20,060 bases of DNA, taken from positions 1-20,060 of IMG/VR virus record IMGVR_UViG_3300042527_000179; one strand, written 5' to 3'. Below the pieces are notes generated by a model, which saw only the letters and a list, made by a program, of their open reading frames with translations, was not told the origin of the DNA and ran no database searches. This document shows positions 714 through 16,150 of the stretch, piece by piece (position 1 is the stretch's first letter; each line of letters opens with the position of its first letter). This DNA is from a virus. A program made the position numbers and the translations under genes.

Positions 714-733
714 GTTGTATAAATTAAGGTTAG

Positions 734-807
<74 letters not shown>

Positions 808-4974: not shown

Positions 4975-5430
4975 TTAATCGTTTAACATAAATGTGTGTG
5001 CAGACTTACTGCCAGACATATTGAACTCGTATGTGTCAGACTCGCACGTGATGTCTCCCGTCCTGATAATCATCTTGGTTGACTTGTGGAAGTCATCAAC
5101 AAAGCCCTCCTTGCTGTTCATATCTAGAAATATGTATACAGACTTGTGGTCCTTTGATACCATCGATGCAGACTGGTACTTCTTGTAAGAACCATTGACC
5201 ACGAGTGCCATCTCAACGAGAGACTGCTCGTCACAAACGTATACGTTGGTTATGTAAAGAACTACGTCTCCGTTGATGTTCTCCATCTTGAGTATGGAGC
5301 TACCTGTTCCTGAGTTGTACGCTATCTTGTACGGATCGTCAATACCGTTGTCTACCATTTGAAATTTCCACTGGGACATGGCTTGTGTTGTTGCTAGCGA
5401 TAGTGCTAGCGATAAAATTAGATTTTTCAT
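4975..5430 (-). CDS. Secreted protein with signal peptide, 151 aa
   Basis: Starting at 5430, MKNLILSLALSLATTQAMSQ is a signal peptide with cleavage likely after the Ala/Ser-rich end. The mature region is beta-rich (DVVLYITNVYV; KSVYIFLDMNS; STKMIIRTGDI) and contains two cysteines (VCDEQ and TCESD), which could form a disulfide in the periplasm. The ORF continues upstream, but only the internal Met gives a signal peptide. A TACGTTTG match lies 34 bases upstream but without a clear -33 element. Function is unknown; envelope localisation is well supported. Confidence 0.7.
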   Translation of the reverse strand: MKNLILSLALSLATTQAMSQWKFQMVDNGIDDPYKIAYNSGTGSSILKMENINGDVVLYITNVYVCDEQSLVEMALVVNGSYKKYQSASMVSKDHKSVYIFLDMNSKEGFVDDFHKSTKMIIRTGDITCESDTYEFNMSGSKSAHTFMLND

Positions 5431-10893: not shown

Positions 10894-11115
10894 TTATTGT
10901 ATTGTTAATTGATATCCTCTTTTTACTAAATAATTTAATTTTGTTTTAAGATATTTTAAACCGCTTTTTAAATCTTCAAAGTTTTCACCTTTATAGTAAT
11001 AAGTATGCTGTACTGATAGTTTGTTTCCATTTCTCTCAACTATCCATTCATCACATATAACTATTCTTAGTTTTTCTGAAGCTATAATTTTGTTTGTTAT
11101 TTCAATTGTTTTCAT
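10894..11115 (-). CDS. Hypothetical protein, 73 aa
   Basis: The protein starts MKTIEITNKIIASEKLRIVI and continues with beta strands (EWIVERNGNKLSVQHTYYY) and a long basic amphipathic helix (DLKSGLKYLKTKLNYLVKRG). It is basic overall. As the second gene of the leftward transcript it would be made very early after infection. I do not recognise the family. Confidence 0.6.
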   Translation of the reverse strand: MKTIEITNKIIASEKLRIVICDEWIVERNGNKLSVQHTYYYKGENFEDLKSGLKYLKTKLNYLVKRGYQLTIQ

Positions 11116-11137: not shown

Positions 11138-11248
11138 TTAACGATGCGAAAAAGGGATGCGTACTCGTTGTGTACGTATTAATATTCCCTCATTGAAGAA
11201 TCCCCATACCTCGAAGACTCCATCAATCTTGATGATTTTACTTGACAT
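11138..11248 (-). CDS. 36-aa peptide, first gene of the leftward operon
   Basis: The frame begins MSSKIIKIDGVFEVWGFFNE and ends RTQRVRIPFSHR. The block IKIDGVFEVWGxFNEGxLxRTQRV looks like a short single-domain beta protein. It starts 25 bases after the structured element at 11273-11511 on the minus strand. If that element is transcribed leftward it would be the leader of this gene. The case rests on sensible codon content and position; no family name is known. Confidence 0.5.
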   Translation of the reverse strand: MSSKIIKIDGVFEVWGFFNEGILIRTQRVRIPFSHR

Positions 11249-11272: not shown

Positions 11273-11511
11273 GGTGCATTCGGTTTCGCTCCGATTAATT
11301 AGTCTTACTAAATGCACCTAGTTTTTGACAGCCACGTGAAACCGCTGTCTCTCTTCTTTATCCCTAAGTACTTGCGTACCTGGTTTTGACATCACCCACC
11401 TGAGTAGTGTAATGATTGCCGTAGCTTTGGGGAGTCTTTATACTTACCCCACTACTCTAGGTCTGACCTACCCCGTTAATGTTTATTGTCTTACCAAGAT
11501 GTCAAAAAACC
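11273..11511. ncRNA. Highly structured element, possible leader or noncoding RNA
   Basis: Several perfect helices are packed into 239 bases. GGTGCATT (11273-11280) pairs with AATGCACC (11311-11318) around two small hairpins. GACAGC (11327-11332) pairs with GCTGTC (11344-11349). TTTTGACATC (11384-11393) pairs with GATGTCAAAA (11498-11507), with GG/CC extending it after a 2-base bulge. Inside that closing helix lie GAGTAGTG (11402-11409) / CACTACTC (11450-11457), GGGGAGT / ACTTACCCC within it, and TAGG/CCTA (11458-11470). No ORF covers it. The strand is undecided because the stems are fully Watson-Crick. The minus strand would make it a leader of the left operon. It could also be DNA-level (origin or operator). 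Confidence 0.55.
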
Positions 11512-11593
11512 CCGTCGGCTCGTTTGCCTTACATCACAAAGAACGTAACTCTATTTCTAAATGATACACTTTTTTTTTAGGTAGATTGTAAAT

Positions 11594-11657
11594 TACGTAG
11601 AACTACGTAGAAAGATCTACGTATAACTACGTAGTGCTATCTACGTATAACTACGTA
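11594..11657. promoter_or_regulatory. Array of six TACGTA palindromes with 24-bp period
   Basis: TACGTA occurs at 11594, 11604, 11618, 11628, 11642 and 11652: spacing alternates 10, 14, 10, 14, 10. This gives three 24-bp units, each with two self-complementary sites one helical turn apart. The last two units are nearly identical (ATCTACGTATAACTACGTAG). The array lies between the structured element and the rightward region, where early promoters are expected. It is best explained as cooperative binding sites of a dimeric regulator or replication initiator. Confidence 0.75.
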
Positions 11658-11811
11658 GTTGACGGGTTATGTTCACGGGCATTTCGCTCTGAAACGTAAG
11701 CTAGGTAAGGCTTTCAGGATATTACATAATATTGGTTGTAAAAATGTAACTATCCTGGACATTGGGATAGGTGTTGCCTACCCTCTACAGGTATGCCAAC
11801 AGCTACGCCAA

Positions 11812-11843
11812 CCAACCGACCAACCGACATGCCGACCAATCGA
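11812..11843. repeat. 8-bp tandem repeat, four units
   Basis: Four adjacent 8-base units can be read: CCAACCGA (11812), CCAACCGA (11820), CATGCCGA (11828) and CCAATCGA (11836). The CCGAC core recurs at 11900-11904 and 11916-11920. The copies are degenerate, as expected of binding sites rather than of recent slippage. Confidence 0.6.
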
Positions 11844-11882
11844 AATGCATTTCTATTTAACATAATGCAAATTATATAACAG

Positions 11883-11901
11883 ACCTACCTACCTACCTAC
11901 C
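11883..11901. repeat. ACCT tandem repeat
   Basis: ACCT is repeated four times from 11883 to 11898 and is followed by ACC. It is a short tetranucleotide microsatellite in noncoding DNA, close to further CCGAC sites. Copy number could vary between related genomes. Confidence 0.75.
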
Positions 11902-11962
11902 GACAGGCCGAACGTCCGACAGGAAAGAATGTGTATGTATGTACATAAGTATTGTAACATAT

Positions 11963-11990: not shown

Positions 11991-12111
11991 ACAGGCAAAA
12001 AGCCAAAAAATCCGACTGAAAATCTGGAAATCAAGACCCCCCCCATAAATTTCAAACGGTTTTCCGATCGGCCTGGCTCGCGTCAATCCCCCCTATTACC
12101 CAAAAATTCTG

Positions 12112-12119
12112 TATATTTG
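12112..12119 (+). promoter_or_regulatory. Bacteroidetes-type -7 element, start of right arm
   Basis: TATATTTG matches the TAnnTTTG consensus used by Bacteroidetes housekeeping sigma factor. It lies 14 bases before the ATG of the first rightward gene. No clear -33 TTTG is present at 19-21 bases upstream (C-rich there), so an activator may be required. Confidence 0.5.
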
Positions 12120-12132
12120 ACAAAAAAAAGAA

Positions 12133-12279
12133 ATGGCAAGAGCTAAGAAGAAGCACCCAAAACCTAGGAGCAAAAGATCAATCAATAGGCTTTTGAAGAT
12201 GATTAGTATTAATGACGAAAAAATAAAAGAGTATGCCAGTAGATACCAAGCCGAAGAGAAAGGTAGTAGAGAGGCTTGA
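12133..12279 (+). CDS. 48-aa basic protein
   Basis: The frame starts MARAKKKHPKPRSKRSINRL and ends in an acidic-to-mixed tail (RYQAEEKGSREA). The N-terminal third is strongly basic, like a nucleic-acid-binding peptide. All six arginines use AGA or AGG, the codons read by the phage tRNA-Arg. It is the first gene of the right arm, directly behind a -7 element, and overlaps the next gene by 47 bases in another frame. Function is unknown. Confidence 0.55.
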   Translation: MARAKKKHPKPRSKRSINRLLKMISINDEKIKEYASRYQAEEKGSREA

Positions 12280-14346: not shown

Positions 14347-15909
14347 ATGATAGTAAAAGAGATTCATTTTGGCGATGATGGCCAAAAAAAGTTGAAATCT
14401 GGCATCAAAAAGATAGCTGGAGCGGTAAAAAGTACTCTTGGAGCAAGAGGAAGGACGGTACTCATCGAGTCTGAGAACCATGTTGGCGGAATTACTGTCA
14501 CTAAGGACGGTGTTACGGTTGCAAAGTCAATCAATCTGTACGACCCGACTGAGAACTTGGCCGTTATGATGATGCGACAGGCCGCTGACAAGACGGCAAC
14601 TGTTGCTGGAGATGGGACCACCACATCAATTGTGCTTGCAGAGGCAATAATTGACGCTTCTGACAAGTACTTAACACCTGAGCACAATGTTACTGAGGTA
14701 ATACGTGGAATATCTGCGCTATCAAAGAAAGTTGTTGACAAGCTAGACAAGATGTCTAAGAAGGTTAACGGAAAGAGGCTTTACGATGTTGCGACAATAT
14801 CAGCAAACAATGACCAAGAGATTGGTAAGATGATTGGTGACGCATTTTCAGAAGTTCCACTTGTAACTGTTGAGAACAGCATGAACTCGGAGACAAGGGT
14901 TGAGATTATAAATGGAATGAGAATCGAGAGGGGTTACACGTCACCATACTTTGTTACCGATCAAAAGAAGCAGGAGTGTGTTCTTGACAACCCGTATGTA
15001 TTGATTTGTGACCACGAGATAAACAACATATCAAATTTAGAGAAGGTGTTAGCACCAATCGTTTCTCAGGGGAAGTCGTTACTAATCATTGGTAACTTAG
15101 GTCCAAACGCACTACAGACGTTAAACGTTAACGTATACCAGGGCAAAATTAAGGCATGCAATATTATTCCTCCGTCATTTGGATACAGACAGAAAGACCT
15201 GTTAAAAGACTTAGCTGTAGCTCTTGGCGGAACATACTTCAGTGAAGACACTGGTGATGATCTATCAATCATTGGTCTATCTGACCTAGGCAAGGCTGCT
15301 AAGGTTATTGTTAAGAAAGACGTTACGGTGTTCATGCACCACGCAGACTTTAAGGAGGAAATTGACAAGCACATTGCTGACCTAAAAGCTATGGTTGATC
15401 AGACTGACAACAAAGAAGACAAAGACTTTATAAGAGAGAGGATAGCCAATATATCTGGCGGAATTGGCGTAATCTATGTTGGAGCTCAGAGCGACATTGA
15501 GCAAAAAGAAAAGAGAGACAGGATTGATGATGCTGTGTACGCAGTTATGGCTGCCATAGAGGATGGCATTCTTCCTGGAGGTGGTATTGCGTTGTCTGAG
15601 TGTGCTGCCATGATTTACGATGAGTTTGATGTTGCCGCAAGGATTATGCATGACGCACTACTGGCTCCATTTGATCAGATACTCATTAACGCTGGCAAGA
15701 AGCCAACCGAGATAGCCATGGGTATCTTTGACAAGGGTAATGGTTATGACGTGAAGGGAGAGCGATTTGGTGACATGATTAAGATGGGTATTATTGACCC
15801 AACTAAGGTTACTAAGAACGCACTACTAAACGCTGTATCTGTAGCAACAACTATTATGAGTACTAACGCAATTATAACAAACATTAGAGCAGATGAAAGT
15901 CCTAAATAA
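14347..15909 (+). CDS. groEL: Phage-encoded chaperonin GroEL
   Basis: The 520-aa protein aligns along its whole length with GroEL/Hsp60. The equatorial nucleotide site is intact: STLGARGRTVL (29-39), TKDGVTVAK (Asp54), AGDGTTT (87-93, Asp89), DDAVYAV (Asp394/395) and GGGIAL (411-416). The apical domain has RGYTSPYF (195-202) with the aromatic residues that bind substrate and GroES. One groove position (V263 in E. coli numbering by my alignment) appears to be Asn. The GGM tail of bacterial GroEL is missing and the protein ends TNIRADESPK. It should form an ATP-driven folding chamber, presumably for phage structural proteins. It overlaps groES by 17 bases. Confidence 0.97.
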   Translation: MIVKEIHFGDDGQKKLKSGIKKIAGAVKSTLGARGRTVLIESENHVGGITVTKDGVTVAKSINLYDPTENLAVMMMRQAADKTATVAGDGTTTSIVLAEAIIDASDKYLTPEHNVTEVIRGISALSKKVVDKLDKMSKKVNGKRLYDVATISANNDQEIGKMIGDAFSEVPLVTVENSMNSETRVEIINGMRIERGYTSPYFVTDQKKQECVLDNPYVLICDHEINNISNLEKVLAPIVSQGKSLLIIGNLGPNALQTLNVNVYQGKIKACNIIPPSFGYRQKDLLKDLAVALGGTYFSEDTGDDLSIIGLSDLGKAAKVIVKKDVTVFMHHADFKEEIDKHIADLKAMVDQTDNKEDKDFIRERIANISGGIGVIYVGAQSDIEQKEKRDRIDDAVYAVMAAIEDGILPGGGIALSECAAMIYDEFDVAARIMHDALLAPFDQILINAGKKPTEIAMGIFDKGNGYDVKGERFGDMIKMGIIDPTKVTKNALLNAVSVATTIMSTNAIITNIRADESPK

Positions 15910-16150
15910 ATTTTTATTAATCGAGAAGATTGTAGAACAGAAGACTGCCAAGAGCGGTCTGATATTAAGTGGAGAGGAGTACCAAGACATGAGGTATCAC
16001 TATGGAGTTGTTGTAGAGCCAGGAATAAACGTTGTTGGAATATCAATCGGTGATAAGATAATGTTCGATAAGGTTCACTCTTATGACGTTGTAATAGACA
16101 GCAACAGGTTTACTGTCCTTCAGGAGAAGGATGTTGTTTGCGTTCTTTAA
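15893..16150 (+). CDS. groES: Phage-encoded co-chaperonin GroES
   Basis: The 85-aa protein has the GroES plan: an N-terminal strand (MKVLNKFLLIEKI) and a mobile loop with VEQKTAKSGLILSGEE. There SGLIL stands in for the usual GGIVL that docks on GroEL. A barrel follows, with GVVVEPG and GDKIMFDKV and a C-terminal VLQEKDVVCVL. It is slightly shorter than bacterial GroES (about 95 aa), mainly in the roof loop. It is coupled to groEL by a 17-base overlap. Its 3' end overlaps the convergent minus-strand gene by 41 bases. Confidence 0.92.
   Translation: MKVLNKFLLIEKIVEQKTAKSGLILSGEEYQDMRYHYGVVVEPGINVVGISIGDKIMFDKVHSYDVVIDSNRFTVLQEKDVVCVL

Follow-up and report, generated by a model that had tools for sequence, protein, structure and literature searches.

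A family of structured RNAs with no counterpart in Rfam 15 or the annotated phage collection lies between the divergent gene arms of a group of phages. We identified it in a 20,060-base IMG/VR virus fragment (the window, that is, the whole stretch analysed), where a gene-free stretch of about 1 kb separates a left arm on the minus strand from a right arm on the plus strand. The left arm encodes a single-strand binding protein, an exonuclease, a DNA methyltransferase and many small genes, the right arm GroEL, GroES and others; in a 64-kb relative (G001), terminase, portal, helicase and primase-like proteins are also found. A sequence-only reading had proposed that positions 11273–11511 hold a structured non-coding RNA or a regulatory leader of the left operon. 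Our analysis bears out an RNA on the minus strand at the head of that operon, but makes a gene-specific leader unlikely, since the gene that follows is exchanged among relatives. The element also extends past the proposed interval, to a hairpin at its 5′ end (Table 1).

Via a right-arm protein, we obtained five viral contigs that carry the element at about 70–88% DNA identity, and from these and the window we built a covariance model (R1). An alignment of the 36-aa ORF that follows the RNA in the window, used as query, yielded 33 viral contigs, and R1 matched the element in all of them (E 9e-94 to 7e-13). Eight further contigs, reached by DNA patterns, were matched as well. With the window, the element is thus found in 42 viral contigs of one phage group, some of them nearly identical (our labels L032 and L037 denote the same contig). 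In all loci it reads toward the left arm. The weakest matches (L040–L043) cover mainly the 3′ domain, as other modules take the place of the core. Across the family, identity to the GroEL of the window falls from 97% to about 67%, so the sequence set spans real divergence. An Rfam search, which the sequence-only reading had suggested, gave no family match at the gathering threshold for the window and nine homologous loci, and no DNA match was found among 50,697 annotated phage records. Several candidates were discarded: a Spirochaetaceae contig (L022, 19-mer match) holds only isolated short AGGTCAGACCT copies at about chance level and no element, an 18-mer match in L033 sits in an unrelated AT-rich stretch, and pattern matches in L098–L101 and L104–L106 fail the model and were taken as chance.

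Table 1. Features of the RNA and its surroundings in the window
Feature	Position	Strand	Remarks
Candidate −7 region of leftward promoter, TTACGTTCTTTG	11537–11548	−	Weak match to TAnnTTTG; inferred for the window
5′ hairpin, GGC-AAACGA-GCC	11517–11528	−	Conserved as RGCAAACGAGCY; GGC/GCC and AGC/GCU stems
Single-stranded conserved lead-in, UUUUGACAUCUUGGUAAGACAAUAAACAUUAAC	11475–11507	−	Proposed closing helix would take its 5′ strand from the first 10 nt
P2 hairpin	11459–11473	−	Conserved 7-nt loop NNGUCAN; concerted changes, read by eye from aligned homologues
P3 (P3a GUAGU/GCUAC, P3b GGGG/CCCC)	11421–11455	−	Conserved loop AAGUAUAAAGACU; landmark alignment
P4 hairpin, GGCAAUCAUUACAC..GUGGGUGAUGUC	11388–11420	−	Covariation and G-U pairs
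P5 hairpin, CC AGGUAC GCAA GUACUU A GG	11363–11383	−	Concerted stem changes in all homologues, by eye
P6 hairpin, GACAGC..GCUGUC	11327–11349	−	Two-sided changes in 5 of 6 pairs; 100% paired
P7, three-way tRNA-like 3′ domain	11273–11318	−	Covariation; 7-bp acceptor-like outer stem
P7a, D-arm-like	11299–11312	−	Arm of P7; 4 bp
P7b, T-arm-like	11280–11294	−	Arm of P7; 4 bp, 7-nt loop AGCGAAA
36-aa ORF, MSSKIIKIDGVFEVWGFFNEGILIRTQRVRIPFSHR	11138–11248	−	Conserved protein, directly after the RNA in the window

Compensatory changes support the fold. RNAalifold predicted 64 pairs from the first six sequences, 13 of them with two-sided changes. Next, segments of 32 loci (27 distinct sequences) were aligned by landmarks and the helices read from them, with 43 pairs counted in P3a, P3b, P4, P6, P7, P7a and P7b. 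Standard base pairs occupied 1,106 of the 1,116 cells. Under a null model that preserves the tree and the number of changes per column (200 runs), the paired fraction averaged 0.71 and reached 0.78 at most, versus 0.99 observed, and 17 of the 32 varying pairs covaried beyond this null (p<0.005). In P6, neighbouring positions read CG/AU/UA, AU/UA/CG and UA/AU/CG/GC, each paired in 27 of 27 sequences; all five pairs of P3a, with two to three pair types each, are likewise paired in 27 of 27. Since this alignment used landmarks, the count was repeated on a plain, structure-free MAFFT alignment of 20 sequences covering P4, P6 and P7. There, 99.2% of cells were paired (shuffles 86.0%, sd 0.7), and the covariation score was 0.416, versus 0.155 (sd 0.012) for shuffles, none of 500 reaching the observed value, and at most 0.107 when columns were slid by 1–3 positions. 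Stems P3, P4, P6 and P7 therefore covary, and the hairpin and the branched domain that had been read from the window by itself (P6 and P7 with its arms) both exist, with many compensatory changes. Among the 1,106 conserved cells, 94 are G-U pairs on the minus strand, where the plus strand would give A-C; this fixes the RNA strand as minus. A coding reading was rejected, as homologues differ by 2- and 5-nt indels and by large insertions. Neither outcome that the sequence-only reading had named as refuting it, a lack of compensatory changes or a conserved reading frame, was observed.

The RNA is modular. From the 5′ hairpin to the end of P7 it measures 251 to 569 nt across homologues, with extra pieces placed downstream of the 5′ hairpin (RGCAAACGAGCY) and ahead of the core: module A, module B or a substitute piece, and module C. 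Module A (about 140 nt) shows two-sided changes in 17 of 26 predicted pairs. Module C, which has a long closing helix and is inserted within the TTGACATATTGG stretch, shows them in 6 of 37 pairs and module T in 2 of 11; the counts cover A, C and T, B having too few distinct copies. Some relatives carry a T-arm-like insert (GAUGG UUCGAUU CCAUC) before P7. The pieces occur in various combinations, namely B and A (L034), B (L035), A and the T-arm insert (L039) or C and the T-arm insert (L037), while the window and L036 have no inserted modules. Since relatives carry such slotted-in structured modules and reach about 570 nt, the window, at about 255 nt, holds the minimal form of the RNA. In some loci the core variant D2 substitutes for P2 and P3, with a P3a-like stem (CUAGG ACGAA CCUAG) kept. 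The motif UUGACA (TTGACA) opens module A (in some cases), B, C and the core, and UUGACA module starts lie upstream of P7 in L034, L035, L037, L039, L044, L048 and L066; it might mark a recombination point or a processing site.

The 3′ domain, P7, has the secondary structure of a tRNA-like domain. P7b stacks directly on the outer stem, giving 11 bp in the window, L102 and L103 and 12 bp in L091. In tRNAs, the acceptor/T-arm stack comprises 7+5 bp and T-loops carry C56-R57-A58. The predicted P7 stack is close to this length, and in the usual family loop of P7b, AGCGAUA, CGA falls where T-loops have C56-R57-A58. At the level of secondary structure only, these loci share acceptor- and T-like stems stacked over 11–12 bp and 7-nt loops of the form NNCGANN or UUCGAUU. 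In L089, L091 and L093 the shape of the domain is kept with different outer-stem letters (CCUCUAGC/GCUAGAGG). Two distant relatives have canonical UUCGAUU T-loops at the place of P7, L102 reading GGUGGG-AAUGGUUCAU-UGGGG-UUCGAUU-CCCCA-CCCACC and L103 GAUGC-AAUGGUUGUA-UGGAGG-UUCGAUU-CCUCCA-GCAUC. An unguided Rfam scan of the L102 domain listed mascRNA-menRNA and tmRNA, both below threshold (tmRNA 13.3 versus a gathering score of 47, no other locus scoring), and a scan of L103 gave no tRNA-like family match. No tmRNA was called by ARAGORN in the window and five relatives. As a cloverleaf tRNA, too, the element is missed by both ARAGORN and Rfam's tRNA model; P7 lacks an anticodon arm. In the window itself, the P7b loop (AGCGAAA) is non-canonical, P7a is without a GG D-loop, and no linker separates the acceptor-like from the D-arm-like stem. 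A processing enzyme might therefore refuse P7.

The RNA is tied to the head of the operon and not to any one gene. In every locus but one, the first start codon follows P7 by 16–26 nt; in the window it is that of the 36-aa ORF, which, as the sequence-only reading had noted, starts 25 bases after the element on the minus strand as the first gene of the left operon. About half of the loci have this 36-aa ORF after P7 and the others one of eight small ORFs (34–119 aa). ACG seems to take the place of the ATG start codon of the 36-aa ORF in L036, around 4998–5000. With the swapping of the downstream ORF, no single gene or pathway is consistently linked to the RNA, an argument against a gene-specific riboswitch. 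No terminator was found between P7 and the ORF. Intrinsic terminators number five in the left arm versus 5.7 expected (rho-dependent ones are not visible this way), and the only one on the minus strand is located inside the 36-aa ORF. A search with the small left-arm protein at 10894–11115 gave no matches.

Upstream of the RNA lies a putative promoter. Just before the 5′ hairpin, most of the L044–L066 homologues carry TATATTTG, with TTG about 19–20 bases further upstream; the window has TTACGTTCTTTG at the position equivalent to that of TATATTTG in many homologues. The Bacteroidota promoter consensus is TAnnTTTG and TTTG (PMC7366714), and TATATTTG with its upstream TTG is in line with it. Judged from these motifs, the promoter type points to a Bacteroidota host. 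The closest annotated phage proteins to the window GroEL (38–49% identity) come in many cases from Flavobacterium phages, and also from MW202828.1, a 60.8-kb podovirus record that is the nearest annotated phage by GroEL. Its inter-arm gap is just 64 bp, and it gave no significant covariance-model match. The window's phage-encoded GroEL and GroES lie in the right arm at 14347–16150.

Our preferred reading, which we hold tentatively, is that the element is a non-coding RNA of the operon leader that acts in trans once cleavage at its tRNA-like end has detached it from the mRNA. Its minus-strand transcript would begin near 11530, from a Bacteroidota-type promoter that the phage carries at the head of its left-arm operon, and would fold into the 5′ hairpin, the helix row P2–P6 and the tRNA-like P7. 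RNase P cuts any RNA that presents a T-stem-loop/acceptor stack, including tmRNA and MALAT1 (PMC4919913). Most likely, the host RNase P (at the 5′ edge of P7), RNase Z (at the 3′ edge) or both would recognise the tRNA-like domain; processing at P7 would then separate the RNA from the operon mRNA, leaving whichever gene follows to start 16–26 nt downstream, and the released RNA may work in trans as a structural or binding RNA. Against release stand the deviations of the window P7 from a tRNA (its P7b loop, P7a, and the missing linker and anticodon arm) and the sub-threshold Rfam tRNA-like matches, which come from one distant relative (L102) only. With slightly more caution, we suggest that the family may represent a previously undescribed modular class of phage RNA, in which helix-bounded domains are exchanged, the tRNA-like end frees the RNA, and the RNA acts in trans on the host.

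The main rival to release is that the RNA stays on the mRNA as a leader acting in cis on expression of the whole left operon, through translation initiation, mRNA stability or processive antitermination of RNA polymerase. Such a leader would sit where this element does, immediately downstream of the putative promoter and ahead of the first gene, and both the constant short spacing to the start codon and the terminator-free junction between P7 and the ORF would suit it as well. However, the length, the modularity and the tRNA-like end go beyond known leaders, and exchange of the downstream gene leaves no room for gene-specific control. With no excess of intrinsic terminators in the left arm, an antitermination leader has little visible to act on. 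We consider a cis-acting leader possible but rather doubtful.

The sequence-only reading had argued from a long-range 10-bp closing helix and an 8-bp stem inside it. In the window, TTTTGACATC (RNA strand, 11498–11507) is indeed complementary to GATGTCAAAA (11384–11393), but this closing helix is not conserved: its 5′ strand is nearly constant while the 3′ strand changes one-sidedly (ATGTC to ACGTC or GCGTC). It is mismatched in most homologues because its 3′ strand also forms the 3′ half of P4, a hairpin that covaries. Similarly, GAGTAGTG (11450–11457) and CACTACTC (11402–11409) can form eight pairs in the window, but only 4–6 of the 8 in most homologues; the two strands belong to P3 and P4. 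Both helices are coincidental or at best alternative states in the window. A further long-range helix predicted by RNAalifold (P1, UUGGUaAG/CUaACCAA) was rejected, since it is invariant in the first six sequences and lost one-sidedly in the wider set (for example AUCAUGUAAG in L052 and CUAACUUU in L045). A riboswitch or attenuator that toggles between the closing helix and P4 to control the 36-aa gene would fit the strand that the two share and the perfect closing helix of the window. In most homologues, however, one-sided changes break the closing helix; the 8-bp stem is interrupted in almost all of the set, and different genes follow P7. Rfam riboswitch matches are at chance level only (SAM, 14.3 bits versus 44.4), and we regard this reading as improbable.

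We have equally little expectation that the element works at the DNA level, as the sequence-only reading had allowed, whether as a replication origin or as a recombination or protein-binding site, with hairpins functional in the DNA. Its place between divergent arms beside TACGTAG repeats and the gain and loss of modules would fit, but the G-U pairs conserved on the minus strand only, the conserved loops and unpaired stretches, and a promoter directed into the element argue against it. We give next to no probability to a conserved regulatory region in which the stems arose by chance: folding energies of the window sequence against shuffled sequence are just moderately unusual (z −2.6 on the plus and −3.4 on the minus strand), but this idea is refuted by covariation that greatly exceeds shuffles, slides and the tree-aware null, and the earlier argument that so many stems are unlikely by chance holds for the element while failing for the two stems that are not conserved.

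To our knowledge, few large structured phage RNAs have been described. GOLLD resembles the present element as a phage RNA with a constant 3′ part and a variable 5′ part (PMC12286853); it differs in reaching more than 800 nt and lying by tRNA islands, compared with 255–570 nt at an operon head between divergent arms, and the phage element has a tRNA-like domain of its own. ROOL, an ornate RNA of phages and prophages of unknown function (PMC12286853), is likewise a phage RNA and differs in size and context. Permissive Rfam scans of the window region, L040, L102 and L103 matched neither model, and the element belongs to neither family. With the mascRNA/MALAT1 ends and the tRNA-like domain of tmRNA it shares an acceptor stem and T-arm without an anticodon arm on a longer RNA, whereas its sequence and D side differ; unlike in one-piece tmRNA, its D-like and T-like arms are contiguous, and there is no tag frame. 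The put RNA of phage HK022, a structured RNA at the 5′ end of the early transcript, mediates processive antitermination. The likeness lies in a structured RNA at the 5′ end of a phage transcript; put is much shorter, whereas the present element is modular, ends tRNA-like and shows no excess of intrinsic terminators. Searches of the literature for put RNA and for phage tRNA-like leaders yielded nothing usable. The family offers a compact form of about 255 nt, many natural module combinations, a clear operon-head position and a built-in, testable release idea. The RNA modules and the downstream gene are both exchanged in nature, which allows the role of the RNA to be told apart from that of any single gene. 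Should the tRNA-like end indeed be processed, a phage would be using tRNA maturation to cut its own operon.

Other features of the locus deserve mention. A tRNA-Arg (TCT) gene lies in the left arm (733–807, minus strand), distant from the element. Palindromic TACGTAGAACTACGTAG-type tandem repeats at 11594–11665, upstream of the leftward promoter and conserved in close relatives, are candidates for an operator or iteron. An AT-rich conserved motif, ATTCTATTTAACATAATGCAAATTATA (related form TTATTTAGAATGAATATAAATTAGCAT), occurs at 11850–11877 and also upstream of the leftward promoter in L044–L066; it is found in both orientations between the divergent arms and is possibly a binding site of a phage regulator. 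A second conserved block with C runs (11992–12184; 79–83% identity in relatives) lies just upstream of the right arm, and ACCGACCGACC / TACCTACC repeat stretches at 11770–11930 are different in every relative.
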